Positions 8,673-42,059 of a DNA stretch of 64,000 bases are shown here, piece after piece. The DNA is taken from contig NZ_JAIMBY010000001.1 of the NCBI RefSeq assembly GCF_026191915.1, forward strand, positions 558,001 to 622,000. Direction: 5' to 3'. The number at the start of each line of letters is the position of its first letter. Position 1 is the first letter of the stretch. The position numbers and the translations under genes were made by a program. The stretch comes from Acidiphilium sp. PA (GTDB lineage Bacteria; Pseudomonadota; Alphaproteobacteria; Acetobacterales; Acetobacteraceae). The notes beneath the pieces were generated by a model. The model was not told where the DNA came from. It did no database searches and saw only the letters and a list, made by a program, of their open reading frames with translations.

Positions 8673-8748
8673 GGGGCCATAGCTCAGTTGGGAGAGCGCC
8701 TGAATGGCATTCAGGAGGTCGGCGGTTCGATTCCGCTTGGCTCCACCA
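8673..8748 (+). tRNA. tRNA-Ala (anticodon GGC), element integration site
   Basis: Complete cloverleaf with acceptor GGGGCCA/TGGCTCC, D loop AGCTCAGTTGGGAGAGC, anticodon stem CCTGA/TCAGG with GGC, T loop GGTTCGATTCC, and encoded CCA. Its 3' part from the anticodon loop onward is duplicated at 16479-16526. The integrated element therefore restores the tRNA at its left end. Confidence 0.97.
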
Positions 8749-8749
8749 A
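8702..8749 (+). repeat. attL, 48-bp direct repeat
   Basis: From GAATGGCATTCAGG (anticodon arm) to CCACCAA just past the tRNA end. It is identical over 48 bp to 16479-16526 and is the left attachment site, inside the intact tRNA-Ala. Confidence 0.93.
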
Positions 8750-8771
8750 TCGTTTCAATGGGTTGCGCGAC

Positions 8772-8780
8772 TTATCCACA
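8772..8780 (+). promoter_or_regulatory. Perfect DnaA box
   Basis: TTATCCACA matches the DnaA consensus exactly. It lies 22 bp inside the element's left end, flanked by short CGCG-rich arms. Only one copy was found, so a role in replication is uncertain. The rest of 8750-8976 shows no convincing gene. Confidence 0.4.
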
Positions 8781-8976
8781 ACGCGCGATTTTTCCCGGAT
8801 ACCAAGCGGATCACAGTTGGCCTAGATTTCGACCCATCTGGTCGGCTCCTTCACGGTTGTGTGATTGCCGAATAGATGCTGGTCGAGGTCGAGGGCCGGC
8901 CTATGCGGCGTCGAGGGTGTCACGCGACATTGTGTGAATCTGTCTTTTATCGGTAAAATAACACGCGCGCGACGGG

Positions 8977-9237
8977 TCAGCGGGTGCGGTCTGGCTTTTC
9001 TGCCGTGACAGGCGCAACATAACCCCTCACTCGCCCGCCATCCTGACGCCACTGTGCGGGCTTCCAGGCGGTGTCTTTCATGAGCCGCCCGAGATCATGC
9101 GCCGATAAATCACGTAGTGCTGATAGGGTATGGCAACCGGCAAGCAAGTCATTCACCGCAACCCGGCGCGATCGGGTTGCTGCAACGATCACGGCGGCGA
9201 TCATCGCTACGGCGCGTTGTCGAGGGTCATCCGGCAT
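8977..9237 (-). CDS. Small protein of the mobile element, unknown
   Basis: 86 residues, no recognised family. An Ala-rich N-terminal helix is followed by a basic, mixed C-terminal half (KDTAWKPAQWRQDGGRVRGY). Its ATG overlaps the 3' end of the gene at 9227-9457 by 11 bp, suggesting coupled translation. It is the last gene of the element's left-hand operon. Confidence 0.5.
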   Translation of the reverse strand: MPDDPRQRAVAMIAAVIVAATRSRRVAVNDLLAGCHTLSALRDLSAHDLGRLMKDTAWKPAQWRQDGGRVRGYVAPVTAEKPDRTR

Positions 9238-9457
9238 CGGCGTCGAGGTCAGGGAACGCTTCGTAGGCAGCGAGCACCGGATTCGCCCGGCGCTTCATTT
9301 CGGCAAGATCGCGGCAGGACCGGGCGGCATCGATCTGTTGAATGCCGATGTAGAGCCGATCGCGCGCGGCCTTCATCTTGGCTTTGAGGTCGAGCAGTTC
9401 GGCTTTCTCGGATTCTGGCAGGCCACGGCCGGCCATCTTGTTCGCGACGAAACTCAT
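9227..9457 (-). CDS. Small helical protein of the mobile element, unknown
   Basis: 76 residues, probably largely helical (SEKAELLDLKAKMKAARDRL). A strong ribosome site, AGGAGGA, stands before the ATG at 9457, with a stable hairpin (9479-9509) just upstream. No family recognised. Confidence 0.6.
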   Translation of the reverse strand: MSFVANKMAGRGLPESEKAELLDLKAKMKAARDRLYIGIQQIDAARSCRDLAEMKRRANPVLAAYEAFPDLDADAG

Positions 9458-9478
9458 TTCAGAATCCTCCTACGGGAT

Positions 9479-9509
9479 GCCCGCCAGTGCCGTGGGAACA
9501 CTGGCGGGC
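9479..9509. repeat. 11-bp stem hairpin before element gene
   Basis: GCCCGCCAGTG (9479-9489) and CACTGGCGGGC (9499-9509) form a perfect stem with a 9-nt loop, between the genes at 9556 and 9457. It is not followed by T residues on the minus strand. It may protect the upstream message's 3' end or tune translation of the next gene. Confidence 0.5.
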
Positions 9510-9555
9510 GGGGCCGCGCGACGGGGTATCAAGTCGCCGCGCGGTTTTCGGTCTA

Positions 9556-10128
9556 TCAGGCCACCTTCGCCGTTTTCACGTTGTGCAGGGCGCGTTCTAC
9601 ATCGGCTAGGCTCGCGATCGGCGCGATCGCCCAATGGTCAGCCGGGGGCGCTTGTCGGCTAAGCCGAAGCGCATACTTTTGCGCGAAGTCGAGGCCGGCA
9701 TCTCTCGCTTCCGCACCGGCCTGATCCAGTTCGGCCAGCGCCGCGCGGGCTTCGGTCAGCGCAGCATCGACGCGGGCGGCGGCTTCGATACGCCTCGCGA
9801 TGGCGGCGGTAAGACGATCGGCGCGGTCGAGGCGATCGGCTTCATGGGCTTTTGCGGCCAGTTCGGCTTCGCGTAGCTTGGCCGCTTCATTGATCGCCGT
9901 CGCCAACTCCAGAGCCGCCTCGGCATCCGTGATCATGCGGCTGGCATTGACCAGATCGGCCGCGGGGATTTTGCTGCCTTCGGCGGCGCGCTCCACCAGT
10001 TCGGTCCGCTCAGCTTTCGCGCGGGCGAGCCTGCCCATTTCGGTCGCGACTGCGGTACGGGCGGCGGTGGTGCGGGCCTGCGCATCGGCGCGTTCGGCTC
10101 GGGCCTTGGTGCGTTCATCGGGTGTCAT
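9556..10128 (-). CDS. Coiled-coil protein of the mobile element, unknown
   Basis: 190 residues, Ala/Glu/Arg-rich, with long heptad-like helices through residues 1-150 (TEMGRLARAKAERTELVERA and similar) and a compact C-terminal end (HWAIAPIASLADVERALHNV). The ATG overlaps the upstream gene's stop by 4 bp. Scaffold-like or regulatory roles are possible; nothing in the sequence decides it. Confidence 0.6.
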   Translation of the reverse strand: MTPDERTKARAERADAQARTTAARTAVATEMGRLARAKAERTELVERAAEGSKIPAADLVNASRMITDAEAALELATAINEAAKLREAELAAKAHEADRLDRADRLTAAIARRIEAAARVDAALTEARAALAELDQAGAEARDAGLDFAQKYALRLSRQAPPADHWAIAPIASLADVERALHNVKTAKVA

Positions 10129-10391
10129 TTTGGGTCTTTCATTTGGTGAATGGGACGGGCGGCGATGCGGTTCATCGCGGCGCGTTCGGTGCGGATTCGA
10201 TCCATTTTCCGCGCGAAGTCAGACCACGCGGATTTTGCGGCGCGAAACTCTGCGGGCGACAATTTACGAGCATCAACCGGCGCGGGTGGTTCGGGATCAC
10301 CGTCTTGCCAATCGGCCGGCATGCCTCGTGCGAGCAGATCGCGATTGCGTTGTTTTTCGTCGTCGGTCATCGCGCTGAACGGCTTTCCCAT
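10125..10391 (-). CDS. Small protein of the mobile element, unknown
   Basis: 88 residues, charged (FSAMTDDEKQRNRDLLARGM; a helical segment in the second half). It overlaps its upstream neighbour by 25 bp and its downstream neighbour by 4 bp, as in tightly packed phage-type operons. No family recognised. Confidence 0.58.
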   Translation of the reverse strand: MGKPFSAMTDDEKQRNRDLLARGMPADWQDGDPEPPAPVDARKLSPAEFRAAKSAWSDFARKMDRIRTERAAMNRIAARPIHQMKDPK

Positions 10392-10528
10392 TTTTTGTAA
10401 TCCTTCGCTCCCGGCTTCATCTTTTCCGATTCGACAAATCGCCGGACGGAGTATTGCGTGGTCGTAATTGAACGGCGCACTGCCGTCATTTCACGTGGTA
10501 ATGGGCAACCTTTGTGCTTGTTCGCCAT
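10367..10528 (-). CDS. Small basic protein of the mobile element, unknown
   Basis: 53 residues from the ATG at 10528, chosen because GAGGAA stands about 10 bp before it; an in-frame TTG further upstream is less likely. Strongly basic (MANKHKGCPLPREMTAVRRS...), suggesting nucleic-acid binding. First gene of the left-hand operon, directly downstream of the iteron/AT-rich promoter region. Confidence 0.5.
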   Translation of the reverse strand: MANKHKGCPLPREMTAVRRSITTTQYSVRRFVESEKMKPGAKDYKKWESRSAR

Positions 10529-10600
10529 AAGTCGTGATTCCTCTATCAACTTTGGTAATCATAGCAAAATATGGGGATAGGACACAATATATATTTAATA

Positions 10601-10660
10601 CGTCACTTCGCGTCACTGCGCGTCAATGATGTATATTGGTGTATTTACGTAGAACTACGT
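10601..10660. promoter_or_regulatory. 10-bp tandem iterons, AT-rich tract and inverted repeat
   Basis: Three 10-bp units, CGTCACTTCG, CGTCACTGCG and CGTCAATGAT, run from 10601 to 10630, next to an AT-rich tract (10577-10600). An inverted repeat ACGTAG-AA-CTACGT follows at 10647-10660. On the minus strand the units read as repeated GTGACG/TTGACG, so they overlap possible -35 boxes for the operon starting at 10528. The layout suits an operator, or a secondary replication origin. Confidence 0.5.
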
Positions 10661-10750
10661 TATGATGACTGGCTTCGCTAGGCGGTAGGGCTGCAACTAC
10701 GGCATGGTGGGAAAAGGAAAGATCTGACCGTCGCCGGTCACTTTCAACGA

Positions 10751-11077
10751 TCACGCTACTCTCTTTCTTTCTAACAATTCCGCCCCTTCTGTTTGTATCG
10801 CGAACCGTTCGTCTCGCTCGTATTTCCAATCTGGCGAGCACGTCGAGCACGTCCATCCTGCGGGATTTTCGATGGCGACGAACCGCTGCGATCCGCCGCA
10901 CCTAGCGCACAAGACGATGATGGTCGGGTCCACCAATTCGCGGATGATCTCGGTCTCTTGAGCGCGGATCGCTGCCCTAATTTCCGGTTGCAATTTGTCG
11001 GCACCCTCCACCCACAGGCGGGCGCGGAGTGTCGCCCCCGCGCCTTGTGCCGACCGGATCAGATCGGCCCCGGTCAT
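10751..11077 (-). CDS. TubC_N-like docking domain fused to a zinc ribbon
   Basis: 108 residues from an ATG overlapping the ATPase stop (ATGA). Residues 1-48 (TGADLIRSAQGAGATLRARL then LQPEIRAAIRAQETEIIREL) match the pattern of TubC N-terminal docking-like domains, known from PKS/NRPS docking and common as short mobile-element proteins. Cys57-x2-Cys60 and Cys77-x2-Cys80 form a likely zinc ribbon. Its position after primase and ATPase suggests a replication accessory role; that is inference. Confidence 0.65.
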   Translation of the reverse strand: MTGADLIRSAQGAGATLRARLWVEGADKLQPEIRAAIRAQETEIIRELVDPTIIVLCARCGGSQRFVAIENPAGWTCSTCSPDWKYERDERFAIQTEGAELLERKRVA

Positions 11078-12711
11078 GCCCATTCACCCCCCTCAAAACC
11101 CGTATCTGTGCCGTTTCCGTCCGCTACACCCCCTGAAACCGCTACACCGCTACAATCGGCAGGCGACTGCGATTTTTCGGGTGTTTCGTATCCGCTACAT
11201 ACATGAGGGTGTAGCGGTTCTAAATCATCGTTTTGGCCAGGATTTCCTTCACTTGTAGCGGTGTAGCGGTTTGAATCCCCCCCACTAGGCGCGGGGTCGA
11301 GGTAACGGGCGAATGCGTCGTCAAACTGGTCGATCTGATAGGCTTTCAGAACCCGGTCGATTGCTCCCCCGAATCTGGCGTTGTGGGGCCTGATCCTGAA
11401 TGGTGACAGAGCACGCGAAAGTTGCGCTGCCGTCATCGGCTTGCCCTGCCTCCACTCTGCCCATGGCCTGTCCTCCATGCTCCCCAGGCGGTTCGCGAGG
11501 TCGGTTGATGCAAGGCGATTCTGGCCTGCATCCTTAAACGCGGTTCGGATATCGGAGAGCAGCATTGCACCGGTTCCACCACTGTCCTGATCGTTAGCGC
11601 GGTCACCAAATAGGGTTAGCAACGCGCGCCGACCACGTGCTGCCCAGGCGGCTCCAGCGGCATCCGCGATAGAAAAGATGGGCACAGAGATATCACCCTC
11701 ACGGTCATTCAGCGCGGCGGGGATTTCCGGGTTTTCGTCGAGTTTATCGGCTTCGTCTTTCGCCCATCGAGCAAGTTTACTACCGATCGTCGCGATCTTG
11801 TTCCGCGCTCCACGATCACGCATTTTCGCAACACGCTGTGCGGCGCTTTTGCGCTCAAGCCTGATTGGGATCGCGCGATCTTCCAACGTGCCGGGCAGGC
11901 TCTTGATGGCAGCGAGCGCGACGGGTGCAAAGGTGGCAAATTGTACCGGAACAAACGCGCCAGAGATTTCGACCACCCTGATCACGTTGCCTGATCGCTC
12001 GAAGCCAGAATTGAGCACCCCCCTCAATTCCTCTGCGTTCTCTTTCAGGTGCGTGTCGGCTTCGTCGATCAGCAGTGACAGCGGAGCCAAGGCTTCGATG
12101 GTCCTGAATACCGACGACGAGCTGATGTTGTCGGCTTTGAGTGGCGACAAGCATGTGGATCGCAGCACGTCGAGCAGGGTGGACTTTCCACAGCGTTTTT
12201 CCGGGCTGGTGATTGCCAGGCGCGGCGTATGCTGAAACCGCGCGTAGCACCACGTATGGGCGATCCAGAGCACGGTTGCATCGCGGGCGGCGGGCGAGAG
12301 GATGACGTGACGGTCCAGAGCAGAAGCCAAGTCATCGAGCAGCGTAGCAAGGTTGACCGGCTCAGGGTGCGGCTCATGCGTTTTGAATGACAAGCGCCGT
12401 CCGTGCGTCGGCTCGTTCGTATCGCCGCGCGCCTTCCTGACTTCGTCGTCGAGGGTCGAGCACCTGATTTTGAGGCGCTTTGCCTCATCCTCTCTTATCT
12501 GATCGTAGTTGATCGCAGACAATTTCGCGAGGCGGGCGATCGCTTGCTCAGCAGTCTCCGGCGCGGCCTCATGCTCAGTGAAACCGTCGTCTTGCGGCGC
12601 GTCATGGGAGGCGCTGGCCGCGTTCGGCTTGGTGACGGTCTCGCCCATCACGGTATCGCCCATAAGAGCCTCAGCGGCCCGCAAATCGGCGCGGCGGATA
12701 GGGCGGCTCAT
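11074..12711 (-). CDS. DUF3631-domain ATPase, replication helicase-like
   Basis: 545 residues. Walker A is at about 169-178 (SPEKRCGKST) and Walker B at 213-219 (LLIDEAD); the DUF3631 core continues to about residue 430 (RPWAEWRQGKPMTAAQLSRALS). DUF3631 proteins accompany Toprim primases in phage-like and island elements and are thought to serve as the helicase partner. It overlaps the primase stop by 4 bp. The C-terminal 80 residues look unstructured; their DNA (11121-11269) holds seven iterons, see separate entry. Confidence 0.85.
   Translation of the reverse strand: MSRPIRRADLRAAEALMGDTVMGETVTKPNAASASHDAPQDDGFTEHEAAPETAEQAIARLAKLSAINYDQIREDEAKRLKIRCSTLDDEVRKARGDTNEPTHGRRLSFKTHEPHPEPVNLATLLDDLASALDRHVILSPAARDATVLWIAHTWCYARFQHTPRLAITSPEKRCGKSTLLDVLRSTCLSPLKADNISSSSVFRTIEALAPLSLLIDEADTHLKENAEELRGVLNSGFERSGNVIRVVEISGAFVPVQFATFAPVALAAIKSLPGTLEDRAIPIRLERKSAAQRVAKMRDRGARNKIATIGSKLARWAKDEADKLDENPEIPAALNDREGDISVPIFSIADAAGAAWAARGRRALLTLFGDRANDQDSGGTGAMLLSDIRTAFKDAGQNRLASTDLANRLGSMEDRPWAEWRQGKPMTAAQLSRALSPFRIRPHNARFGGAIDRVLKAYQIDQFDDAFARYLDPAPSGGDSNRYTATSEGNPGQNDDLEPLHPHVCSGYETPEKSQSPADCSGVAVSGGVADGNGTDTGFEGGEWA
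11121..11272. repeat. Seven TGTAGCGG iterons, putative origin inside coding DNA
   Basis: The 8-mer occurs as CCGCTACA at 11121, 11139, 11147 and 11192, and as TGTAGCGG at 11210, 11254 and 11262. AAACCGCTACACCGCTACAA (11136-11155) and its exact complement at 11253-11272 form a 20-bp inverted repeat. The copies are read in different phases (RYT/TAT, PLH, CSG, GVA), so selection acts on the DNA and not on the peptide. They lie within the 3' end of the ATPase gene. Confidence 0.85.
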
Positions 12712-13577
12712 GCTTCACCCCCGGCGCGGCGGATGAGCACGTCGTTGAAGTCGTCGCCCCGCAAATTCGGTTTCACGATGCGGACTGTGCGGCCTTCCGA
12801 TTTCCAGCGCCGGAGTGCGGCCTCGGCAGATTCGATGCCGGGTTTGTCATGGTCGGCGGCGATCACCACGGACTTCACGTCTGGGGGCAGCAGCAAACCC
12901 TTGGCCAAGTTCCCAGCCGAAACCGCTGACCAGGCAGGAAGGTCGAGCAGGATGCCGGCGGCGATGGCGGTTTCCGGCCCCTCGGCAACCACGATGTCGG
13001 CACCCAGGCCAAACCGGATTGCACCGCCCCAAATTGGCCCCTTGAACGCCTTGGCCGGGTCGAGCGCGGCCTTGCGGCCATCGTCGGCAAGGTAAATCCG
13101 CTGCACCCCGATCTGGTTGCCATTTACGTCGTCGATCCGGCAGATCAGCGCGGGGTAGCGGCGATTGTCCAGGTGGCGAGTGTCGGCACGAAACCGGAGT
13201 GCGGGATTGCCGATCGCCTGATCGAGGCGGCGGCGGCGGAGGTAAATCGAGGCTAGGCAGTTGCCGGTCAGGGTCTCACTGCTACCCCAGAGTGCTACAG
13301 CCTGTTCCTGCTTCTTGGCGCGGCCCTCAGCGGCCTTGGTGGAGGCGATGGCGTCGTCGGAGCGGTCAATCCGCGCACCCGCTCCAGCGTCCATCACAGC
13401 AGCCCAGATCGCATCCCGATCATTGCACGACACGCAAGACGCGGAGATTTTCCCGCGCTTGGATTTCAGCAGGAGCGTCGGCACCGTGTAGTTGCAGGCC
13501 GGGCAGGTGCAGCGCCAGTGATTCCCAGTCTTGAATGCTCCCAGGTTGGAAGCGATAGTTTCGATTGTTGCAGTCAT
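12708..13577 (-). CDS. Toprim-domain DNA primase of the mobile element
   Basis: 289 residues. The N-terminal zinc finger has Cys23, Cys25, Cys28, Cys48 and Cys51. A middle region (about 90-185) resembles phage/plasmid-type primases (PALICRIDD, GVQRIYL). The C-terminal Toprim fold has AEGPET around Glu199 and ADHD (Asp242, Asp244), the metal-binding set. Synthesises primers, presumably at the element's own origin, together with the overlapping DUF3631 ATPase. The gap upstream to alpA carries a candidate opposite-strand RNA. Confidence 0.9.
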   Translation of the reverse strand: MTATIETIASNLGAFKTGNHWRCTCPACNYTVPTLLLKSKRGKISASCVSCNDRDAIWAAVMDAGAGARIDRSDDAIASTKAAEGRAKKQEQAVALWGSSETLTGNCLASIYLRRRRLDQAIGNPALRFRADTRHLDNRRYPALICRIDDVNGNQIGVQRIYLADDGRKAALDPAKAFKGPIWGGAIRFGLGADIVVAEGPETAIAAGILLDLPAWSAVSAGNLAKGLLLPPDVKSVVIAADHDKPGIESAEAALRRWKSEGRTVRIVKPNLRGDDFNDVLIRRAGGEA

Positions 13578-13645
13578 GGCATGAAACTTTCATTCATGCC
13601 GCTTCGGATATCGCTTGACGTAGAGCAGAAACTTTCGATATATGG

Positions 13646-13701
13646 GCTTGCGCGTCTATCGAGTTTCCGCCCCGTCCGCTTGCCAGAGCGGCGGGGTTTT
13701 T
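13646..13701 (+). ncRNA. Candidate small RNA opposite the primase leader
   Basis: On the plus strand, against all neighbouring genes, TTGACG (13615-13620) and TATATG (13639-13644) have 18-bp spacing. About 50 bp on is a strong terminator (13670-13701). The RNA would be about 50-55 nt and complementary to the primase mRNA leader. P4 uses a short RNA to control its replication operon; the parallel is inference. Confidence 0.35.
13670..13701 (+). terminator. Rho-independent terminator, plus strand
   Basis: Stem CCCCG-t-CCGCT / AGCGG-CGGGG with a 6-nt loop, followed by TTTTT. It is oriented to stop plus-strand transcription, though both flanking genes read minus. Confidence 0.7.
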
Positions 13702-13704
13702 CGT

Positions 13705-13890
13705 TTAGGCGGCGGTGCGGACTTCGGCCCGGCTGGCGATGTAGTTGGCCAGATCGGAGCGGCGGAAAAAAATCTTCCTGTCACCAATCTTTATGCGCGG
13801 GATTTCCGGGATGCGGTCGAGCGTCCGATCAGAAACATGAAGGAAATTTGCGGCCTGCTTGCGGTCGAGCAGTTCATCGGAATGAGACAT
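13705..13890 (-). CDS. AlpA/Xis-like helix-turn-helix protein
   Basis: 61 residues, winged-helix MerR/AlpA type: LLDRKQAANFLHVSDRTLDR is the HTH and RIKIGDRKIFFRRSDLANYI the wing and follow-on helix. Such proteins act as excisionase or as activators of integrase/replication genes in P4-like elements. It heads the alpA-primase-ATPase operon, and a 20-bp palindrome lies 35 bp before its ATG. Confidence 0.85.
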   Translation of the reverse strand: MSHSDELLDRKQAANFLHVSDRTLDRIPEIPRIKIGDRKIFFRRSDLANYIASRAEVRTAA

Positions 13891-13925
13891 AAATCACCTT
13901 GTTTGTTGTGGTGACTGTCCAAATA

Positions 13926-13945
13926 CACATACGTGCACGTATGTG
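13926..13945. promoter_or_regulatory. 20-bp perfect palindrome, candidate operator of alpA operon
   Basis: CACATACGTGCACGTATGTG is fully self-complementary. It lies between alpA (start 13890) and the end of the gene at 13968, where the alpA promoter must be, so a dimeric repressor or activator site is the simplest reading. Confidence 0.6.
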
Positions 13946-13967
13946 CAGCAATAGACTTCTCTCATTT

Positions 13968-14591
13968 TCAGGGGGTGAAAATGGTCTTGATTGAACGTGC
14001 GTCGCGTTTTCGGGCGGCTTTGATGCCGATAAACTTAAGGCCAGTTTTTATATGCCGGCGCATCTGGGCTTCCGATAATTTAGCGCGACGAGCCATAAAC
14101 CTAATTATGTCATCGGACTTCATCGCCGGGTTCGCGTGGCAATTTTCGAGATAGGCTTGCGCTGCCTTGTATCCGAGCGACTGATCCCGATACCGGGCGA
14201 ACGGGTTGCTCCCTTTTGTTTTTCCGCTCTTGAATCCGAATGAATCGGCAAGCGCCTTACTGCCATCCGCAAGCTTCCAGGCTTTTTCATCGAACGTCGC
14301 GAATCCGGCTATTTGCTCGATGAAAGTAGACGCGCTGGCAACCACGTAGCCGGCCAAGTCATCAGGCAGAGGATTAGATCGGTCCCAAGTCGCCAGCGCC
14401 TCCATCGCACCTATCGGGTTGCCGTCCGTCCGCCATGATCTCAGAGCGTCCGCATGGCGCACGGCGCGCGTTTGGGCCATGAGTGCTGGAGCAATTTGCT
14501 CGTTGCGTTTGGTCACTTCCTCCAGCACCGCGTTCACCCAATCGGCGTAGATGGGCGGGGTTTCACCCCCGCCGTTGTCATCGCCGATCAC
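13968..14591 (-). CDS. Mobile-element protein of unknown function
   Basis: 207 residues from a GTG overlapping the upstream stop (GTGA). This start is preferred to an upstream in-frame one at 14750, which would overlap the upstream gene by more than 150 bp. Mostly helical; the C-terminal part (DDIIRFMARRAKLSEAQMRRHIKTGLKFIGI) looks like a DNA-binding helical bundle with a basic tail. No family recognised. Last gene of a three-gene coupled operon. Confidence 0.6.
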   Translation of the reverse strand: MIGDDNGGGETPPIYADWVNAVLEEVTKRNEQIAPALMAQTRAVRHADALRSWRTDGNPIGAMEALATWDRSNPLPDDLAGYVVASASTFIEQIAGFATFDEKAWKLADGSKALADSFGFKSGKTKGSNPFARYRDQSLGYKAAQAYLENCHANPAMKSDDIIRFMARRAKLSEAQMRRHIKTGLKFIGIKAARKRDARSIKTIFTP

Positions 14592-14830
14592 GATTTTGCC
14601 CCAAGACGCTCCACCGCTTCCAGCGCCTTCACGTCGGCGTCCGGGTCGCCATTGGCGAGCAGAAAAGCCAGCGCGGCCTTGCGCACCCCACTCCGCCGGA
14701 CAATCGCGCGGAAAAAATTTAGAAAGAGTGGTTGCGCTTCCGGGGAGCATGAGCGGTACGCCTGAAGGACACGGAGTTCGTTGTCGGTTATGGCCATTGT
14801 CGGCTGCTCAGCCGGTTGTTTCGCGTTCAT
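14588..14830 (-). CDS. Small helical mobile-element protein, unknown
   Basis: 80 residues from the ATG at 14830 with GGAG upstream. Helical, with one long amphipathic run (AQPLFLNFFRAIVRRSGVRKAA split by short loops) and an acidic C-terminal segment. It overlaps both neighbours by 4 bp (ATGA upstream, GTGA downstream). No family recognised. Confidence 0.6.
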   Translation of the reverse strand: MNAKQPAEQPTMAITDNELRVLQAYRSCSPEAQPLFLNFFRAIVRRSGVRKAALAFLLANGDPDADVKALEAVERLGAKS

Positions 14831-15039
14831 GACTGCGACTCCGCGAAAGTCCGCCGGAACGACGCCAGCGTCATTTTGGCGATCAGCTCGCGCTCGGACG
14901 GGCTGGTCGCCATTCTCGCCAGCTTCAACATCGCGGTGTCGGCGGTTCGCACCACGTCCACCACGCGCGGGCTTGTGGCGCGGCGGGCAACGGTTGTGGT
15001 ATCGGTTGATCGGTCCTGTTTCATCTGGTTTGTCTCCAT
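14827..15039 (-). CDS. Small mobile-element protein, unknown
   Basis: 70 residues from the ATG at 15039 (METNQMKQDRS); two earlier in-frame starts give a proline-rich extension that looks non-coding. The second half is helical and basic (TASPS-type ERELIAKMTLASFRRTF). It sits about 80 bp after the integrase stop and is coupled to the next gene. Confidence 0.5.
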   Translation of the reverse strand: METNQMKQDRSTDTTTVARRATSPRVVDVVRTADTAMLKLARMATSPSERELIAKMTLASFRRTFAESQS

Positions 15040-15121
15040 TGGCGGGATCATCGGCGGCGGGTGTCTCACCACCCGTCGCCATCCCGTTCATGCTGCCGGC
15101 CGGGCAGCGCGGTATCTTCCA

Positions 15122-16333
15122 TCACCTGGGCTTGCGCCTCGGGTTCGGGTTGATTTCGACAATCTCAGCCTTGCTACCGCCGCCCATCATTGCGGCGATG
15201 CGCGCGCCGGTCCGATCCGCCGCCGCCTTGGCCGGATCATCGGCCAGATGGGCGTAGCGTTCTGTAGTGACTGATTTCTTGTGGCCTAGAAGCTTGCCGA
15301 CGATGTAGAGGGCATCGCCCCCTCCGATGGCGGCGCTGGCGAAAGAATGCCTCAGATCATGCAAGTGAACGTCCAGAATGCCGGCAGCGGCGCGGATGCG
15401 CTCCCAGGGCTTCGCCACCCCAACGAACGGCGCGGCAGGACGATCGCCCGGCAGCACGTAGGGATTGCCGGCCAGGCGCGGCAGGCCAGCGAGCAGTTCC
15501 AGCGCCGGCGCGGACAGGAAGATGTTGCGCGCGCCGGTTTTGGATTCAGGCAGGCGGGCGATGCCGGTTTGCATGTCGATCCACTCCCACTTGAGGGTCA
15601 GGATTTCAGATCGGCGCGCACCGGAGAACAGCAGCAACCGGATAGCGGCGATTGCGCGCCAATCTGCCAGACCAGCAGCCTCGGCAGTCATGAGGGCATC
15701 CCCCAGGCGGGCGAGTTCATCGGCTGATAGGTAGCGTTCTCTCGGTTTTTCTTTGTTCTTCTCGATGTTCCGGCAGGGATTGGAGTTGTCCGGGCGTTCG
15801 CCAATCCGTTCGGCCCATCCCAGTATGCTCGAAACCAGTGCTAGGGCGCGGTTCGCCGCGACTGGCGTGTCTCTCATGGAATGGTGGAGGCGCTGGATAT
15901 CGGCCTTGGTGATCTCTGGCAGCCTCAATTTGCCGATCGCCGGCAGTATACGCTGGTCTAAGAGCCGCTTGTCCTCCGCGACGGTCCTCAGTTTCTTATG
16001 CGGGGTGGCGTATTCCGTGATGTAGCGTTCGGTGAAAGCGGCGAACGTGATGGCACCCTTGGCCCGCCTGCGTTCATCGGCGGGGTCGCGTCCATCACGG
16101 ATTAGACCAAGAATGCGGATGGCTTCGCGCCGGGCAGATTCCGCCCCGTAGGCACCCTTGCCGTGCCGACCGATCGTGTAGAGCACCTGCCGGCCCTTCA
16201 CGCGCGTCTTGACGCAGTAGGTGGCATCGCGGCCCCGCTTGCGGATGCCAAACCCCCGGCACTCCGTATCCCAGACCTGATCGCCCTCAGCCATGTGTTC
16301 GACGATCTCGGCAGTGATGCGCTTGGTTGCCAT
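15122..16333 (-). CDS. Tyrosine-recombinase integrase
   Basis: 403 residues, P4/CP4-type layout. There is an N-terminal DUF4102-like arm-binding region (about 1-90), a SAM-like core-binding domain (about 95-180) and the catalytic domain with Arg240 (SGARRSE), Lys265, His325-x2-Arg328 (HDLRHS), His351 and Tyr360 (ERYAHL). All catalytic residues are present, so it is probably active. It should recombine the 48-bp tRNA-Ala repeats. It reads away from attR, which is 145 bp upstream. Confidence 0.95.
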   Translation of the reverse strand: MATKRITAEIVEHMAEGDQVWDTECRGFGIRKRGRDATYCVKTRVKGRQVLYTIGRHGKGAYGAESARREAIRILGLIRDGRDPADERRRAKGAITFAAFTERYITEYATPHKKLRTVAEDKRLLDQRILPAIGKLRLPEITKADIQRLHHSMRDTPVAANRALALVSSILGWAERIGERPDNSNPCRNIEKNKEKPRERYLSADELARLGDALMTAEAAGLADWRAIAAIRLLLFSGARRSEILTLKWEWIDMQTGIARLPESKTGARNIFLSAPALELLAGLPRLAGNPYVLPGDRPAAPFVGVAKPWERIRAAAGILDVHLHDLRHSFASAAIGGGDALYIVGKLLGHKKSVTTERYAHLADDPAKAAADRTGARIAAMMGGGSKAEIVEINPNPRRKPR

Positions 16334-16478
16334 CGCAGTATCCTATGGTGACCGGGATATCCTTGGTTCACCCCCGGATACCGCGTCATGCAAAGACACG
16401 CAAGAAAATAACGCGCCATAGGTGAGGGTTTGTCTCACTCTGTCATCCCGTTTTCACCCCTGTCTAGGTCGATACACA

Positions 16479-16526
16479 GAATGGCATTCAGGAGGTCGGC
16501 GGTTCGATTCCGCTTGGCTCCACCAA
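16479..16526 (+). repeat. attR, 48-bp direct repeat (partial tRNA-Ala)
   Basis: Identical to 8702-8749. It holds only the anticodon arm to CCA part of tRNA-Ala and lacks the D arm and 5' acceptor strand, so it is not a functional tRNA. It marks the right end of the element. Confidence 0.93.
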
Positions 16527-17072
16527 ATCGACGTTTCCTGACGCACTTGGCCACAATGCCGCATTTCACGGCACGGTTGCCTCGGATCAAGGCGCAGTTC
16601 CAGGCGATCATCCAAGTGCAGTCACGATTGAGTGGCACATGGCATCTTACGCCGCTCGGATGGGCCGTTTGTGCTGTCGCAGCCCGCCCGTTACCGCTTC
16701 GCAACATATCAGATACTCTGCCGGACAACGAGCGACTGCGATGCCCAGACTTACCCTCGAACCCTCGTTTGCTTTGTTTCTGTTTGACGTGCGCGGCGGC
16801 GACCGGCGCAGCTGCCAGTCGCGTAATGCCGGGCCCCGCATGACCAATGACTTGATCAACTCGGGCATGCGTGCCGTGCTCGCCTGTGTACTGCCCGATG
16901 ACAGCTTCAGGCTGGCAAGTCTCATTTCCGATCGGCAATACCCTCTGTTCCTGCCGATTCACGCCAGTCGAGATCTCTTCCCTCTTGTTGTCACGCGAGC
17001 TTCACTGATATGCCATCGCCCTGTCATCAAGCCGCGTTAACCGGCACGGGTTTTCAACAAGGGGATTTTTCC
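16527..17072. other. Intergenic stretch, no supported gene
   Basis: About 545 bp of chromosome between attR and ugpB. Open frames exist on both strands, but none has a ribosome site, recognisable domain or natural composition. It should hold the ugpB promoter. I see no clear repeat. Confidence 0.6.
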
Positions 17073-35908: not shown

Positions 35909-36028
35909 TTGCAAGTGCGGTGACCTGAAGCGTCGCGCCGCAGATTTCCCTGATTTGTCATAATCGTCCGGCTCCGGTTGGGGCAAAGGCAGCGCATAAC
36001 CCAAGCCGTCCCCACTGCGAGAAACCGA

Positions 36029-37684
36029 GTGCTCGACCACACCGCCCGACCCGACCCGCCAGATCTTGCAGCCTATCTGCGCGCGACCGGCCAGATCGAT
36101 GCCACCGGATTGGCGCGTGCCGATGCCATCGTTGCCGAAACCGGCCAGAGCCGCGCGGCGGCCCTGGTTCAGCTCGGCCTGATCGGCGAGCGCAGCCTCG
36201 CGCTGGCCTATGCGGCCATGCTCTCGCTGCGGCTGCTCGAGCCGGCCGATTACCCGGCCGCGCCAATCCTGCCCGAGCGGCTCCGCCCGCGTTTCCTGCG
36301 TGATGCGCGGGCCCTGCCGATCGCGCTCGATGCGGGGGTGCTGCATCTCGCCATGGTCGATCCCGAACGCGATTTCGTGCGCGATGCGATCGCGGCGGCA
36401 ACCGGTCTTGCGATCCGCATCGCGATCGCGGTGCCGATCGATCTCGACGCCGCGCTCGCCCGTCTCTACCCCGATGCCGCGCTGGCCGCCCCGATCGCCG
36501 AGGCCGAGGAGCCGAACGAGGCGGATGCCGAACGGCTGAAGGATCTGGCGAGCGAGGCGCCGGTGATCCGCCTGGTCAATCAGCTCATCGCCCGCGCGGT
36601 CGAGACCCAGGCGTCCGACATCCATATCGAGCCGGAGGAAGACCGCCTGCGCATCCGCTATCGCTACGACGGCGCGCTGGTCGAGGCCGAGACCCAGCCC
36701 GCCGCGATGGCGCCGGCGATCATGTCGCGCATCAAGATCATGGCCCGGCTCGACATCGCGGAGCGCCGCCTGCCGCAGGATGGGCGGATCAAGCTCGCGG
36801 TGCGCGGCCACGAGGTCGATTTCCGGGTCTCCTCGATCCCTTCGCTGCATGGCGAGACGATTTCGATCCGCGTGCTGGATCGCGGCGCGGTGCGTTTCGA
36901 TTTCGCCGCAATCGGGCTCGATCCCGCCATCACCGCGCAGTTCCGCGCGGCGCTGGCGGCACGCAACGGCATCGTGCTGGTGACCGGCCCGACCGGCAGC
37001 GGCAAGACGACGACCCTGTACACCGCCCTTGCCTCGCTCGATGGCGTGGCACGCAACATCACCACGATCGAGGACCCGATCGAGTACCAGTTGCGCGGGG
37101 TCAATCAGAGCCAGGTCAAGCCGCAGATCGGGCTCGATTTCGCGCAATTGCTGCGCGCCTTGCTGCGCCAGGACCCGGACGTGATCATGGTGGGTGAAAT
37201 CCGCGATCTGGAAACCGCGCAGATCGCCGCGCGCGCCGCGCTCACCGGGCATCTGGTGCTGTCGACGCTGCATACCAACTCGGCGGCGGCGACGGTGACA
37301 CGGCTGCGCGACATGGGGCTCGAGCCGTATCTGATCGCCTCGGTGCTGCGCGGCGTGCTGGCGCAGCGCCTGATCCGGCGGTTATGCGCGGCGTGCAAGC
37401 GCCCGGCGCGGATCGATCCGGTGTTCGCCCGGCGTTTCGCGATCGATGACGGGGCGACGGTCTTTCATCCGGTTGGCTGCGCCGCCTGCCGCGGCACCGG
37501 GTATCGGGGCCGCCGGGCGATCGCCGAGTTTCTGGTGCCGGATGCCACGATCGGCAAGCTGCTGGCCGATGGCGCGAGCGAGGCGGTGATCGCCAGCACG
37601 GCGGGCATGCGCAGCCTGGCGCTGGCCGCGGTCGACGCCGTCGTCGCCGGCGAAACGTCGATGGAAGAAAGCGCGTCATTTTGA
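36029..37684 (+). CDS. gspE: Type II secretion ATPase
   Basis: Hexameric cytoplasmic motor of the type II system, about 551 residues if the GTG at 36029 is used; a TTG at 35978 is an alternative, and neither has a strong ribosome site. N-terminal GspE_N (about 1-150). ATPase core with Walker A GPTGSGKTTTLY, Asp box TIEDPIEY, Walker B DVIMVGEIRD and His box HLVLSTLHTN. The tetracysteine zinc element is CAACK...CAACRGTG. First gene of the gsp cluster. Confidence 0.93.
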   Translation: MLDHTARPDPPDLAAYLRATGQIDATGLARADAIVAETGQSRAAALVQLGLIGERSLALAYAAMLSLRLLEPADYPAAPILPERLRPRFLRDARALPIALDAGVLHLAMVDPERDFVRDAIAAATGLAIRIAIAVPIDLDAALARLYPDAALAAPIAEAEEPNEADAERLKDLASEAPVIRLVNQLIARAVETQASDIHIEPEEDRLRIRYRYDGALVEAETQPAAMAPAIMSRIKIMARLDIAERRLPQDGRIKLAVRGHEVDFRVSSIPSLHGETISIRVLDRGAVRFDFAAIGLDPAITAQFRAALAARNGIVLVTGPTGSGKTTTLYTALASLDGVARNITTIEDPIEYQLRGVNQSQVKPQIGLDFAQLLRALLRQDPDVIMVGEIRDLETAQIAARAALTGHLVLSTLHTNSAAATVTRLRDMGLEPYLIASVLRGVLAQRLIRRLCAACKRPARIDPVFARRFAIDDGATVFHPVGCAACRGTGYRGRRAIAEFLVPDATIGKLLADGASEAVIASTAGMRSLALAAVDAVVAGETSMEESASF

Positions 37685-37744
37685 AACCCGCCGCCAAACG
37701 ATCCCCAAGCCCGATCCCCCGGCGGCGCCCGCGCCAACCCCCAT

Positions 37745-37792
37745 GCCCGGAATTAACGAAAGTTTTTTGGTTCTTTTTTCCAAAAAAGAACG
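37745..37792 (+). repeat. Half copy of the dispersed hairpin repeat
   Basis: GGAATTAACGAAAGTTTTTT followed by a GGTTCTTTTTTCC / AAAAAAGAAC hairpin matches the right half of the repeat at 7284-7403. It lies in the gspE-gspF gap, just before the gspF ATG, and could partly stop the operon transcript. Confidence 0.65.
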
Positions 37793-37802
37793 TCTTCCTG
37801 CC

Positions 37803-39020
37803 ATGCTGACCTTCACCTACCGCACCCTCGACCGCACCGGTGCCGAATCCCGCACCACGATCGAAGCCGCATCCGAACCCGATGCCATTGCCACCCTCAA
37901 GCAGCGCGGCCTGATCCTGCTCGGCCCGGATCGGCCCGGCCGGTTCGACCTCGGTGCCCTGCTGGCGACCGAGATCGGCGGTGCGCGCCTGTCGGCGAGC
38001 GAGCGGGCCGATTTCACGCGCGAACTCGCTTCGATGCTGCAAGCCGGGCTCGATCTGGAGCGATCCCTGCGCTTTGCCGGCGAGATCGCGGCGCGCGCAC
38101 GCACGCGCCGGATCATCGCGCATCTGCGCGATCAGGTGCGCGATGGTGCCTCGCTCGCGCAGGCGCTGAGCGCGGAGGCGGCGAGTTTTCCGCGCCTCTA
38201 CATCGGGCTGGTGCGGGCGGGCGAGGAATCCGGCGCGCTCGCGGGTACGCTGGAAAACCTGGCGGACCTGCTCGAAACATCCCGCGCCCTGCGCGCCTCC
38301 ATCATGGCGTCGCTGACCTATCCGGCGCTGCTGCTGATTGCGGCGATCGGGGCGATCGTGTTCCTGCTGACCGATGTGCTGCCGGAATTCGTGCCGATTT
38401 TCGCGGAAAACGGCGTGAAACTGCCGGGGTCGACCCGGCTGCTGCTGGCGCTCGGGCATGGCTGCGCGGTCGGCTGGCCCTATGCGCTGGCGTTCGCGCT
38501 CCTGGGCGGGTTGGCTGTGCGTGCCGTGCTGCGCCGGCCCGGGCCGCGCCGGTCGGTCGATGGGATGCTGCTGCGCCTGCCGGTCGCCGGTGCCTTGTTG
38601 CGCGAGGCGGTGGCGGCACGGCTGACCCGCACGCTCGGTGTGCTGCTGACCAACGGCGTCGCCCTGGTACCGGCGCTGGCGATCGTGCAGGAGGTGATCG
38701 GCAATCGCGCCGCCGCCGCGGCGATCGCCAGCGCGACCGAGGCGGCGCGGCGCGGCGCCGGCCTCGCGCGCGGGCTGGAAACCGCGGGCCTGCTGCCGAT
38801 CCGCGCGATCCACCTGCTGCGGCTCGGCGAGGAGACCGGCCAACTCGGCCCGATGGCGCTGCGCGCCGCGGCGATTCACGAGGAACGCACCAGGCTCGGC
38901 GTCGAAAAATGCGTCGCACTGCTGGTGCCCGCGATCACCGTGGCGATGGGTGCGGCAATCGGCTTCATCGTGTCCTCGCTGCTGCTCGCCATGCTGGGGC
39001 TCGACCAGCTTGCGCGCTGA
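37803..39020 (+). CDS. gspF: Type II secretion inner-membrane platform protein
   Basis: 405 residues from the ATG at 37803 (MLTFTYRTLDRTG); the in-frame ATG at 37743 would translate the repeat and is unlikely. Two T2SSF domains (about 65-190 and 270-390), each with conserved patterns (ADFTRELASMLQAGLDLERSL; LTRTLGVLLTNGVALVPAL), and three membrane helices. Anchors the pseudopilus machinery. Confidence 0.93.
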   Translation: MLTFTYRTLDRTGAESRTTIEAASEPDAIATLKQRGLILLGPDRPGRFDLGALLATEIGGARLSASERADFTRELASMLQAGLDLERSLRFAGEIAARARTRRIIAHLRDQVRDGASLAQALSAEAASFPRLYIGLVRAGEESGALAGTLENLADLLETSRALRASIMASLTYPALLLIAAIGAIVFLLTDVLPEFVPIFAENGVKLPGSTRLLLALGHGCAVGWPYALAFALLGGLAVRAVLRRPGPRRSVDGMLLRLPVAGALLREAVAARLTRTLGVLLTNGVALVPALAIVQEVIGNRAAAAAIASATEAARRGAGLARGLETAGLLPIRAIHLLRLGEETGQLGPMALRAAAIHEERTRLGVEKCVALLVPAITVAMGAAIGFIVSSLLLAMLGLDQLAR

Positions 39021-39468
39021 GGTCGATGCCGGGTTCACCCTGCTCGAAGTGATCGTGGTGGTCGTGATCCTCGGGCTGGTGCTCGGCATGGTGGCCGCCA
39101 ATGGGCCGCTGCGCAGCCCGCGCCTCGCCCAGGCGGCGGCGGTGCGCGACATCCGCCAGAGCCTGCAGGATGCCGCGGCGCGGGCCATCGCACAGGATCG
39201 CACGACGGTGTTCCGCCTCGATCCTGCCCGCGGCATCTGGCGCGAAGGCGGCCGCACCGGCACGCTACCCGCCGGTACCCAGGTGATCTTTCGCGGTGTC
39301 ACCGGCGTTGCCGCGCGCAAGGCTCCGGTCGGCATGGTGTTTTTCGCGCCCGATGGCAGCGCCAGCGGCGGGCGCATCAGCCTCGCCGGTCCGGGCGGTG
39401 TGCGGATCATCGCGATCGACTGGCTGACCGGGCGGATCAAAATCGATGCGCCAGGCCCCCGACGATAG
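39010..39468 (+). CDS. gspH: Type II secretion minor pseudopilin, GspH/FimT-like
   Basis: 152 residues from a TTG inside the end of gspF (11-bp overlap). The prepilin motif is AEVDA-GFTLLEVIVVVVILGLVLGMV with Glu5 after cleavage. The C-terminal domain looks GspH-like and lacks the calcium-loop pattern of GspG, the major pseudopilin. No other GspG candidate is in the cluster, so this protein could conceivably fill that role. Confidence 0.8.
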   Translation: MRAEVDAGFTLLEVIVVVVILGLVLGMVAANGPLRSPRLAQAAAVRDIRQSLQDAAARAIAQDRTTVFRLDPARGIWREGGRTGTLPAGTQVIFRGVTGVAARKAPVGMVFFAPDGSASGGRISLAGPGGVRIIAIDWLTGRIKIDAPGPRR

Positions 39469-39823
39469 CGGCTTCCTGCTGCTGGAAACGCTGATCGCCT
39501 TCGTCATCGCGGCGCTGGCGCTGGCGGTGCTGTATCGTGCCGCGTTCGACGGCGCGGCCTCGGTTGCGGTGTCGCGCCGGGAAACCGCGGCGATCGACCG
39601 CGCGCAGTCGCGCCTCGCCGCCTTGCGGGTGATGGCGCCGGCGCATCGCTACGTGCATGCCGGGCCGGACGGTGGAGGGTTTTTCTACCGCGAAACCGCG
39701 ACCCGGCTGGCCGCACCGCATGGTGCCGCGCTGGTTGCGGTGCGGATCAGCGTGACCGAGCGCTGGGGGGCGGCCGGCCGCGCGGTGACACTGACCAGCC
39801 TGGTCGCGGTGCCGGCGCAATGA
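39446..39823 (+). CDS. gspI: Type II secretion minor pseudopilin, GspI-like
   Basis: 125 residues. The prepilin peptide SGFLLLETLIAFVIAALALAVL has Leu where Thr is usual (GFLLLE). It is followed by a small GspI-type domain (GGFFYRETATRL, VAVRISVTERWG). Overlaps gspH by 23 bp and gspJ by 4 bp. Confidence 0.82.
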   Translation: MRQAPDDSGFLLLETLIAFVIAALALAVLYRAAFDGAASVAVSRRETAAIDRAQSRLAALRVMAPAHRYVHAGPDGGGFFYRETATRLAAPHGAALVAVRISVTERWGAAGRAVTLTSLVAVPAQ

Positions 39824-40410
39824 GGCGCGAGGCCGGCTTCACCCTGCTGGAAATGATGGTGGCGCTGGTCGTGCTCGGCCTGTTGCTGGTCGGTCTGGCC
39901 CAGGGGGTCGGTTTCGGACTGGGCAGCTATGCGCGGCAATCCGCCGTGCTCGCCCAGGCCGGGCGGCGGGTCGCGGTCGATCGGGCGTTGCGCCGGCTGA
40001 TCACCGAGGCACGGCCGGGGCAGGCGGCGGGGGGCGCCCATGTACTGCATCTGATCACGTTGCTGCCGGAGGCGGTTGCCGGCGAGGACCGCTGGATCGA
40101 TGCGACGATCGTGGTCGATCGGCGGCACGATCTGATCCTGGTCTGGTCGCCGCATCGCGCCGGTGTGGCGCTGCGCCCGGCCGCACCGCCCAGGGTCGAG
40201 CGTCTCGCGCGTGCCGTGCAGCGGCTCGATGTCGGCTACTGGTGGCCGCGCACGGTGTTCGGCGCACCGGTGTGGCGGACGCGCGGGCCGGCCGGCGGCC
40301 TGCCGCGGCTGATCCGGCTGCGCATCGTCGGCATCGGCCATCATCACCGGTCCGCGCCGGTGCGGTGGCCCGCTCTGATCGCCGCGCCGGCGCTCGCCAC
40401 CGCGCACTGA
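39820..40410 (+). CDS. gspJ: Type II secretion minor pseudopilin, GspJ-like
   Basis: 196 residues. Prepilin motif REA-GFTLLEMMVALVVLGLLLVGL; the rest fits GspJ size and position (LERLARAVQRLDVGYW). With GspI and GspK it forms the tip of the pseudopilus. Overlaps gspI by ATGA; a 49-bp gap follows. Confidence 0.85.
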   Translation: MRREAGFTLLEMMVALVVLGLLLVGLAQGVGFGLGSYARQSAVLAQAGRRVAVDRALRRLITEARPGQAAGGAHVLHLITLLPEAVAGEDRWIDATIVVDRRHDLILVWSPHRAGVALRPAAPPRVERLARAVQRLDVGYWWPRTVFGAPVWRTRGPAGGLPRLIRLRIVGIGHHHRSAPVRWPALIAAPALATAH

Positions 40411-40459
40411 CATGAAAGCTTCATTTTTCAAAACCCTGTCAGCACGTCACTAGGGCGCA

Positions 40460-41473: not shown

Positions 41474-42059
41474 GCTGATCGACGGTGCACGGCCCGATCT
41501 GCCGACTGGCCGCGCCGGCCAGGGGGCTGCGCTCGGGCTGACGCTGGCGGGTCTGCTGGTGGTGTGGTTCGGCCTGATCGCCCCCGGCCTTGCGTGGTAT
41601 GATGCACGGGCGCGAAGCATCGCCGAACGCCGCCTGATGATCGCCCATGAGCGCGCCCTGATCGCTGCCCTGCCCGAATTGCGGCGGCGCATCGCGGGGT
41701 TGCGGGGCGGTGATATCGCGGCGACCGCCCTGCTCACCGGCGGCTCGGATGCGGTAGCGGGTGCCGCGCTGCAGGGCGATGTGCAGGCGCTGGCGGCGCG
41801 GCACGCGATAACCCTCGATTCCGCCGAGATTCTCACAACGGTGAAAACCGGCACGATGCGGCGGATTCCGCTGCGGATCAGCCTGACCACGGACTATCCC
41901 CGGCTGATCGCGCTGCTGGGCGCGATCGGGGCCGCCGCGCCGCGCATGCTGGTCGATGACGTCTCGCTGCACGCGACCGGCCTGCCCGATCCGGGGCGCG
42001 ATCTGCCCCTTCGCGCGCGCTTCACCATCTCGGCGTTCCGCGCCGCGCAACCCCGATGA
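41460..42059 (+). CDS. gspM: Type II secretion protein GspM-like
   Basis: 199 residues with one N-terminal membrane helix (about 24-45, LGLTLAGLLVVWFGLIAPGL), a short coiled coil and a ferredoxin-like periplasmic domain (about 110-195). Partner of GspL. Assigned mainly by position, size and topology, since GspM is poorly conserved. Confidence 0.8.
   Translation: MARARLIDGARPDLPTGRAGQGAALGLTLAGLLVVWFGLIAPGLAWYDARARSIAERRLMIAHERALIAALPELRRRIAGLRGGDIAATALLTGGSDAVAGAALQGDVQALAARHAITLDSAEILTTVKTGTMRRIPLRISLTTDYPRLIALLGAIGAAAPRMLVDDVSLHATGLPDPGRDLPLRARFTISAFRAAQPR

Follow-up and report, generated by a model that had tools for sequence, protein, structure and literature searches.

Sequence evidence for a proposed iteron-reading DUF3631 initiator, with a putative origin in its own gene, in a small integrative element of Acidiphilium sp. 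PA

Introduction

P4-like satellites carry primase, helicase and origin-binding functions, which are united in one fused alpha protein, and an AlpA-like regulator. Here we describe a 7.8-kb integrative element at tRNA-Ala(GGC) of Acidiphilium sp. PA (Acetobacteraceae), located on a 64,000-nucleotide stretch of DNA which was analysed as a whole and is called the window below (RefSeq assembly GCF_026191915.1, contig NZ_JAIMBY010000001.1, positions 558,001 to 622,000; coordinates are those of the window). In contrast to the P4-like satellites, the element has two separate genes, for a Toprim primase and a DUF3631 protein, and no P4 capsid or decoration genes were recognized with Pfam and PHROGs in the open reading frames (ORFs) scanned. 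These were 9 of the 12 ORFs taken as element genes plus an 81-aa ORF with Pfam and with NCBIfam, and 10 of the 12 with PHROGs and with PADLOC. The DUF3631 protein is probably an initiator and helicase that recognizes an iteron array located at the 3' end of the gene encoding it.

In the Gram-negative phage-inducible chromosomal islands (PICIs), the genes int, alpA, pri and rep are oriented in one direction, and the origin lies directly 3' of rep, where two iteron sets flank an AT-rich region (PMC6092414). The Acidiphilium element shares the unidirectional set of integrase, AlpA, primase and initiator (the last two split or fused in PICIs), and its putative origin toward the 3' side of the proposed initiator gene likewise has two iteron sets. 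It differs in the DUF3631 initiator, in the array lying within the coding 3' end, in the recurrent 3+3 geometry with two opposite sets and only mildly AT-rich gaps, and in its target, tRNA-Ala; no terS or capsid-redirecting gene was recognized in the ORFs scanned. The phage-inducible chromosomal minimalist islands (PICMIs) have a minimal set of int, AlpA (PF05930/PF12728) and primase and no capsid-remodelling genes (PMC10803314). The set is similar here, whereas PICMIs reside beside fis and encode DUF3987/DUF5906 primases in place of the DUF7146/Toprim_3 primase and DUF3631 protein.

Rep of the Staphylococcus aureus pathogenicity islands (SaPIs) and Cch2 of the staphylococcal cassette chromosome mec (SCCmec) are self-loading initiator helicases which bind short iterons next to their genes via their C-terminal domains, and Rep apparently forms two hexamers (PMC7581432). 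The DUF3631 protein resembles them in combining a helicase with a C-terminal domain for which iteron binding is predicted here, and in having iterons at its gene. It differs from these initiators in its Pfam family (theirs are DUF927 and Primase_Cterm) and in the iterons, which here are 8 bp long, arranged as a palindrome and placed inside the gene. DUF3631 itself is the family of RepAM of pMEA300, found in the actinobacterial integrative and conjugative elements (AICEs), and RepAM proteins were predicted to be rolling-circle replication initiators because putative nick sites resemble that of pC194 (PMC3218068, section 7). AICE replicons of the RepAM type have excised circular forms, and some relatives of our element are apparently circular too; FtsK/TraB transfer genes are present in AICEs, whereas 9 of the 12 ORFs here gave no such match. 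In the open-access literature searched, DUF3631 occurs in one paper, and no link between it and iterons was found.

Results

A repeat scan revealed a 20-bp perfect inverted repeat within the DUF3631 gene (arms 11136-11155 and 11253-11272). It belongs to an array in the last 200 bp of the gene. The 8-mer CCGCTACA occurs seven times in the window, always within 11121-11269 (plus strand at 11121, 11139, 11147 and 11192; minus strand at 11210, 11254 and 11262), and none of 100 shuffles reached this number. The last six copies are symmetric about 11204.5 in a 3+3 order of tandem pair, single, mirrored single and mirrored tandem pair. Rfam gave no match besides the tRNAs.

The array recurs among DUF3631 relatives, which were drawn from genome contigs, named species genomes (79 loci kept of at least 524 confirmed DUF3631 matches), IMG/VR (31 loci) and phage and plasmid records (1 and 3 records, 3 of these fetched). 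The resulting 132 loci, i.e. the window and those members of L027-L159 with a tblastn match to DUF3631 (132 of 134 tried), include duplicates of one element (L028/L078, L030/L079, L032/L120 and others). Dataset 3300047160 alone supplies 9 of the 31 IMG/VR loci. A strict array, defined by a best score of at least 19 within -450 to +400 of the DUF3631 stop, was present in 75 of the 132 loci, compared with 0 of 131 and 1 of 114 control regions of 850 bases upstream and downstream, respectively. The titles of the strict-array records, mostly metagenome-assembled genomes, name alpha-, beta-, gamma- and deltaproteobacteria, Verrucomicrobia, Acidobacteria, Actinomycetes, Anaerolineales and Acetothermia. 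With the looser criterion of at least six clustered 6-mers in both directions, 95 of the 132 loci have either form. Two circular Streptomyces plasmids with DUF3631 (L158 and L159) carry 12 and 13 copies of CCGCTA at the same place, but with a 9-bp period of the CCGCTAC repeats as judged by eye.

The 75 strict arrays comprise 70 non-identical ones. The iteron sequence varies between elements (natural types include CCGCTACA, CCGTCACA and CCGTTACA) around the 8-bp general form N[C/G/T]GnnACA. The arrays were selected by their mirrored arms and the inner copies were not used in the selection, so that these provide a fair test: in 50 of the 70 arrays, both inner copies agree with the outer consensus in at least 7 of 8 positions, whereas this was the case in 1 of 3500 loops after shuffling and, when a foreign consensus was used, in 308 of 4216 trials. 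Bases 4 and 5 agree between mirrored copies in 60 and 62 of the 70 arrays and between arrays in 13%, an agreement that is partly built in because mirrored arms were selected for. The arrays occupy all three phases of the reading frame (38/13/10, leaving out the miscalled stops of L034, L041 and L146), six lie 3' of the stop codon and those of L034 and L041 are also beyond the true stop, which argues that the array is kept as DNA. A DNA pattern blind to protein retrieved two IMG/VR contigs, both with the match at the DUF3631 3' end, while the strict pattern ACACCGnnACAA...TTGTnnCGGTGT, found in 1 of 385 genomes of the class (the own genome), was too narrow for a census. In the 55 arrays whose loops measure 95-100 nt, two further features recur: a GAAacCc...GggTTGT-like motif before the right arm, and C or G runs about 20 bp outside the arms. 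The sole phage record matching DUF3631, Pseudomonas phage Phipami28 (L157, PV029746), has a CCGCGACA-type array within the 3' end of the gene; ABC transporter and Rhs genes are in the neighbourhood and the record carries Mu-like head genes.

Iteron bases covary with residues of the DUF3631 protein. Mutual information was calculated between the iteron bases and 402 protein columns of 66 proteins less than 90% identical from the strict-array loci, with array-encoded residues excluded. For base 5, residue 454 ranks first (z 12.9; column mean 0.48, sd 1.48) and residue 444 second, and for base 4, residues 455 (z 7.4) and 444 (6.8) are on top. Valine at residue 454 goes with T at base 5 in 15 of 17 cases and threonine with A or C in 31 of 31. 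When the motors were limited to 60% identity (43 sequences), residue 454 was still first for base 5 (z 8.5), followed by 444 and 443. The valine/threonine rule also holds at 15 of 17 further loci (permutation p 0.0035). These derive from the 57 loci without a strict array, 21 of which were listed by the form of their repeated 6-mer before their wings were inspected; L147, L151, L156 and L069, where the position holds neither V nor T nor N, were excluded. Blinding was incomplete in that the C-terminal sequences of L027, L039, L158 and L159 were known beforehand, L098 and L111 share an identical wing, and there is no N among the 17.

The covarying residues lie in a predicted wing. In the AlphaFold2 model of the protein (pLDDT 82.7), residues 443-447 and 453-459 form two strands following the helix 428-438, which is a winged-helix-like arrangement. 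The covariation of these predicted wing residues with iteron bases suggests that the C-terminal domain reads the iterons. The array-encoded tail (residues 480-545) is predicted to be disordered, with pLDDT below 50, so that the array occupies a part which the protein seems free to vary. Foldseek returned replicative AAA+ helicases as the best matches of the model, among them PriRep1 with double-stranded DNA (PDB 7pds; the entry title gives the name alone), an initiator of staphylococcal islands. The structure-match table rests on residues 105-373 and includes MCM proteins, and the wing domain is outside it. The modelled motor thus resembles replicative AAA+ helicases; the DUF3631 profile gave no match to PDB sequences up to E 0.1. 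Fusions of Toprim and DUF3631 occur in 6 of 10 relatives scanned.

DUF3631 genes are found in islands and on apparent circles. In 20 of the 132 loci, corresponding to 19 distinct elements, a second copy of the tRNA 3' end lies 5.6-14.4 kb from the first; DUF3631 is enclosed in every one of the 20 pairs, and 16 have a strict array. Our element is one member of a large class of such small islands. Twelve bounded elements were tried and nine recovered, and 74 of their 83 ORFs were scanned. They contain nine integrases and nine DUF3631 genes, a Phage_capsid gene in L146, Abi_2 and Ymh genes in L108, and TubC_N genes (3 of 74 ORFs); in L029 the gene after DUF3631 is a TubC_N match below the cut-off (8.7e-4). 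Matches of two of the 74 ORFs to tail and tail-fibre families of PHROGs were not counted as tail genes since Pfam shows collagen repeats in two of the 74. Of 36 whole contigs, 5 are apparently circular, having terminal repeats of 90-127 nt of the kind that assembly of a circle leaves behind. These are L048 (10.6 kb; GpA terminase, the phage capsid protein Phage_capsid_4 and a strict array), L065 (10.3 kb; integrase), L161 (11.7 kb; integrase and an array), L098 (7.3 kb; integrase, Toprim primase and DUF3631) and L140 (4.5 kb; a 775-aa DUF3631 protein, two smaller ORFs and a strict array), of which L140 looks like a near-minimal replicon. Fragments of tRNA of 17-22 nt, considered as attP, lie 74 and 138 nt past the integrase in L161 and L065; shuffles equalled their scores in 4 and 8 of 20 cases.

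Two further elements of the own genome are informative. The sister element on contig C6 (about 41.5-48 kb; L042:6513-12958) encodes an integrase 72% identical to ours, HTH_17 and a Toprim primase, with a VapE-like helicase in place of DUF3631; a direct repeat of at least 22 nt was found neither in 3000-19901 of L042 nor was there any tRNA in L042. Contig C20 carries at 19.8-31.4 kb (L196) a satellite- or prophage-like element, truncated by the contig border, whose genes include those for an integrase, a sigma factor, a DUF5906 helicase and the terminase large subunit as well as a tape-measure-like gene. Copies of our 88- and 190-aa genes (67% and 56% identical) lie between its terminase and tape-measure-like genes. 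Replication modules thus seem to be exchanged among such islands, and the genes shared with the packaging-gene-bearing C20 element hint at a satellite life.

The boundaries and gene content of the element (Table 1) largely agree with the first-pass annotation, made from the window alone. The exact 48-bp direct repeats at both ends and the intact tRNA on the left were confirmed, and the left repeat is the 3' part of tRNA-Ala(GGC), starting at the anticodon arm. Every one of the 12 ORFs taken as genes lies on the minus strand, in agreement with the single strand noted there, and the integrase gene is at the end distal to the tRNA. Family models agree with the assignment of integrase, AlpA, primase and DUF3631, with the AlpA-like protein just below the HTH_17 cut-off (26.5 bits; cut-off 27). 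That the locus is an integrative element carrying replication genes of its own is well supported. The label TubC_N of the 110-aa protein is not supported, as Pfam gave no TubC_N match up to E 0.1, and the iteron array in the DUF3631 gene had been overlooked.

Table 1 Features of the element in the window
Feature	Position	Strand	Basis or remark
tRNA-Ala(GGC), intact target gene	8673..8748	+	ARAGORN, Rfam RF00005
attL core, 48 bp	8702..8749	+	Perfect direct repeat
86-aa protein	8977..9237	-	41% identical in sister element of G001
76-aa protein	9227..9457	-	58% identical in sister element of G001
190-aa protein	9556..10128	-	56% identical copy on contig C20
88-aa protein	10125..10391	-	67% identical copy (66 aa) near terminase gene, contig C20
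110-aa protein	10751..11083	-	Place held by TubC_N-like genes in some relatives
DUF3631 protein, 545 aa, proposed initiator and helicase	11074..12711	-	PF12307 2.6e-38; AAA+ fold matches
Iteron array (proposed origin)	11121..11272	.	Repeat scan, motif count; homologous arrays in relatives
Predicted wing codons (residues 443-459; covarying 444, 454, 455, 456)	11335..11385	-	Covariation, AlphaFold2
Toprim primase, 289 aa	12708..13577	-	DUF7146 6e-21; Toprim_3 1e-13; phrog_510 2e-34
AlpA/excisionase-like helix-turn-helix protein, 61 aa	13705..13890	-	HTH_17 7.7e-6; phrog_66 2.1e-6
260-aa ORF, no family	13968..14750	-	Pfam, PHROGs, NCBIfam, PADLOC without match
167-aa ORF, no family	14588..15091	-	Pfam, PHROGs, NCBIfam, PADLOC without match
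Tyrosine integrase, 403 aa	15122..16333	-	PF00589 2.9e-18; phrog_1 2.4e-62
attR core, 48 bp	16479..16526	+	Perfect direct repeat

Eight of the 12 ORFs have no family in the libraries scanned (a 60-aa ORF was given to no library), and the 81-aa ORF overlaps the 167-aa ORF in another frame. In agreement with the first-pass annotation, which had seen no capsid, packaging or transfer genes, no match to capsid, packaging, transfer or defence families was found in the ORFs scanned with Pfam, PHROGs, NCBIfam and PADLOC; the only NCBIfam match to a defence helix-turn-helix model was far below the cut-off (E above 0.05). Neither FtsK/TraB (FtsK/SpoIIIE-type) nor relaxase was matched by Pfam in 9 of the 12 ORFs, and the others, of 60, 76 and 86 aa, are too small for an FtsK/SpoIIIE-type transfer protein. 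A nucleotide search of the element against 50,697 phage records matched two, in the tRNA only. Homologues of the 190-aa protein were found in no phages and, among 150 genomes of the family, only in the own genome, on two contigs, and none of the 88-aa protein in viral contigs. Elsewhere in the window, the 8-kb stretch 36001-44000 has a G+C content of 68-74%, which is higher than in most of the window.

The left flank or the tRNA was matched in all 13 genomes of the genus, the own included, and the tRNA-Ala locus was inspected in 6 of the 12 relatives (G003, G005, G006, G010, G011 and G012). All six have a single copy of the core and no element protein within 5-10 kb beyond the tRNA, so that the insertion is polymorphic. 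The site is free of the element in the stretches read, but a scarless empty site was not found in the six, where other DNA follows the tRNA; a query of the joined flanks matched across the junction solely in the window itself. G006 matches the left flank with 95.8% identity as far as the end of the tRNA and the right flank with 94% identity from 16926 onwards, and other genes (an arginine-deiminase type and others, named by eye) lie between them. The approximately 400 bp to the right of attR (16527-16925) have no counterpart at that place in G006, and 16744-16824 matches another stretch of its tRNA-Ala locus.

Discussion

With a probability of roughly 0.8, the locus is an integrative element that replicates after excision, with DUF3631 as an iteron-reading initiator helicase whose origin is in its own gene. 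Replication after excision had been one of the possibilities raised from the window alone, and the array, the DUF3631 covariation and the apparently circular relatives strengthen it. The element would be excised by the integrase and the AlpA-like protein and then replicate from its own origin. The winged-helix-like C-terminal domain of DUF3631 would read the 8-bp iterons (CCGCTACA here) in two opposed sets of three, a tandem pair and a single copy in each, toward the 3' end of the DUF3631 gene. The AAA+ domain would then assemble where the DNA has been opened, perhaps in the form of two head-to-head rings, and the adjacent Toprim primase would begin synthesis. Primase and DUF3631 would together represent a split form of fused primase-helicase-initiators.

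Several observations weigh against this interpretation. Neither a strict array nor at least six clustered inverted 6-mers were found in 37 of the 132 loci; the closest relative, G001, has 11 copies of CGCTAC and no strict array, and two of the five apparent circles (L065 and L098) are without one as well. The array gaps are mildly AT-rich (bins up to 0.59 versus 0.41 for the loci) and there is consequently no clear melting element. In the covariation, N at residue 454 accompanies G in just 4 of 9 cases, and L052 and L102, two of the 17 further loci, violate the valine/threonine rule. The base-4 signal is indistinct at 60% identity or less, with residues 444 and 455 second and third (z 3.3 and 3.2), and at motor identities of 50% or less (18 sequences) neither base 4 nor base 5 is distinct. 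The Foldseek TM-scores are low, 0.18-0.31 of the query. The published prediction for RepAM also points in another direction.

According to that prediction (PMC3218068), DUF3631 would be a rolling-circle initiator and the array would belong to a double-strand origin that includes a nick site. We regard this as improbable because the DUF3631 protein of the window has no Rep nuclease domain recognizable with Pfam or PHROGs, its best structural matches are AAA+ helicases, its pairing or fusion with a primase suits unwinding and priming, and the two iteron sets are symmetric. The array could also be an operator or an RNA structure controlling the expression of DUF3631 or of downstream genes and not an origin, given that it sits at a gene border within the operon and that its palindromic arms could form a stem. 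There is little chance that this is its role to the exclusion of an origin: a stem needs no six copies of one 8-mer in tandem and single positions, Rfam matches nothing besides the tRNAs, array bases covary with DUF3631 residues, and the array accompanies DUF3631 in differing operons and on three apparent circles. An operator role is not exclusive with an origin, as a bound initiator could autoregulate its gene too.

Two further explanations concern the way of spreading. Kinship with the AICEs, with the element being mobilizable or conjugative and its transfer gene lost, is suggested by the circular Streptomyces plasmids L158 and L159, in which DUF3631, primase, helix-turn-helix protein and integrase make up the replication and integration part and the CCGCTA repeats are at the same place; it is unlikely, however, as no FtsK/TraB or relaxase was matched in the ORFs scanned with Pfam and as integrase and AlpA match phage families of PHROGs. 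Packaging by a phage of the same host, as in satellites of the PICI or P4 type, is compatible with our interpretation and would be a further step, for which the odds seem slightly better than even. Dependence on a helper phage is plausible and is favoured, indirectly, by the int-AlpA-pri-rep order in one direction, as in the Gram-negative PICIs (PMC6092414), the head genes in the relatives L048 and L146, and the 88- and 190-aa genes common to the terminase-bearing C20 element. On the other side, no terminase, capsid or capsid-redirecting gene was matched in the ORFs scanned with Pfam and PHROGs, no helper phage was identified and other carriers could move the island. Families of terS, capsid morphogenesis and interference genes, which are not present in all PICIs, had no match in the ORFs scanned either, with eight ORFs having no family.

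The best reading is that of a replicon of the PICI/SaPI type whose initiator comes from another family and whose origin is part of the initiator gene. It is somewhat more likely than not that the DUF3631 proteins of several bacterial phyla represent one initiator-origin system, characterized by a wing code (residue 454 for base 5, residue 455 for base 4; V with T, T with A or C) and a recurrent 3+3 palindromic array in the part of the initiator gene that encodes a disordered tail. Such a system would be a portable module for satellites, AICE-type plasmids and tiny circles, and theta-type loading of double rings would replace the rolling-circle picture of RepAM.

If this is true, a "domain of unknown function" would gain a mechanism outside Actinobacteria, the published guess on the replication mode of RepAM would be corrected, and a simple bacterial model of an initiator doubling as helicase would be available. 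An origin would be indicated in many unannotated islands, given the at least 524 DUF3631 relatives. The covariation code is the newest and most readily testable part of the proposal; with it, the pairing of initiators and origins would become predictable, and so would the question of which elements can share a cell.

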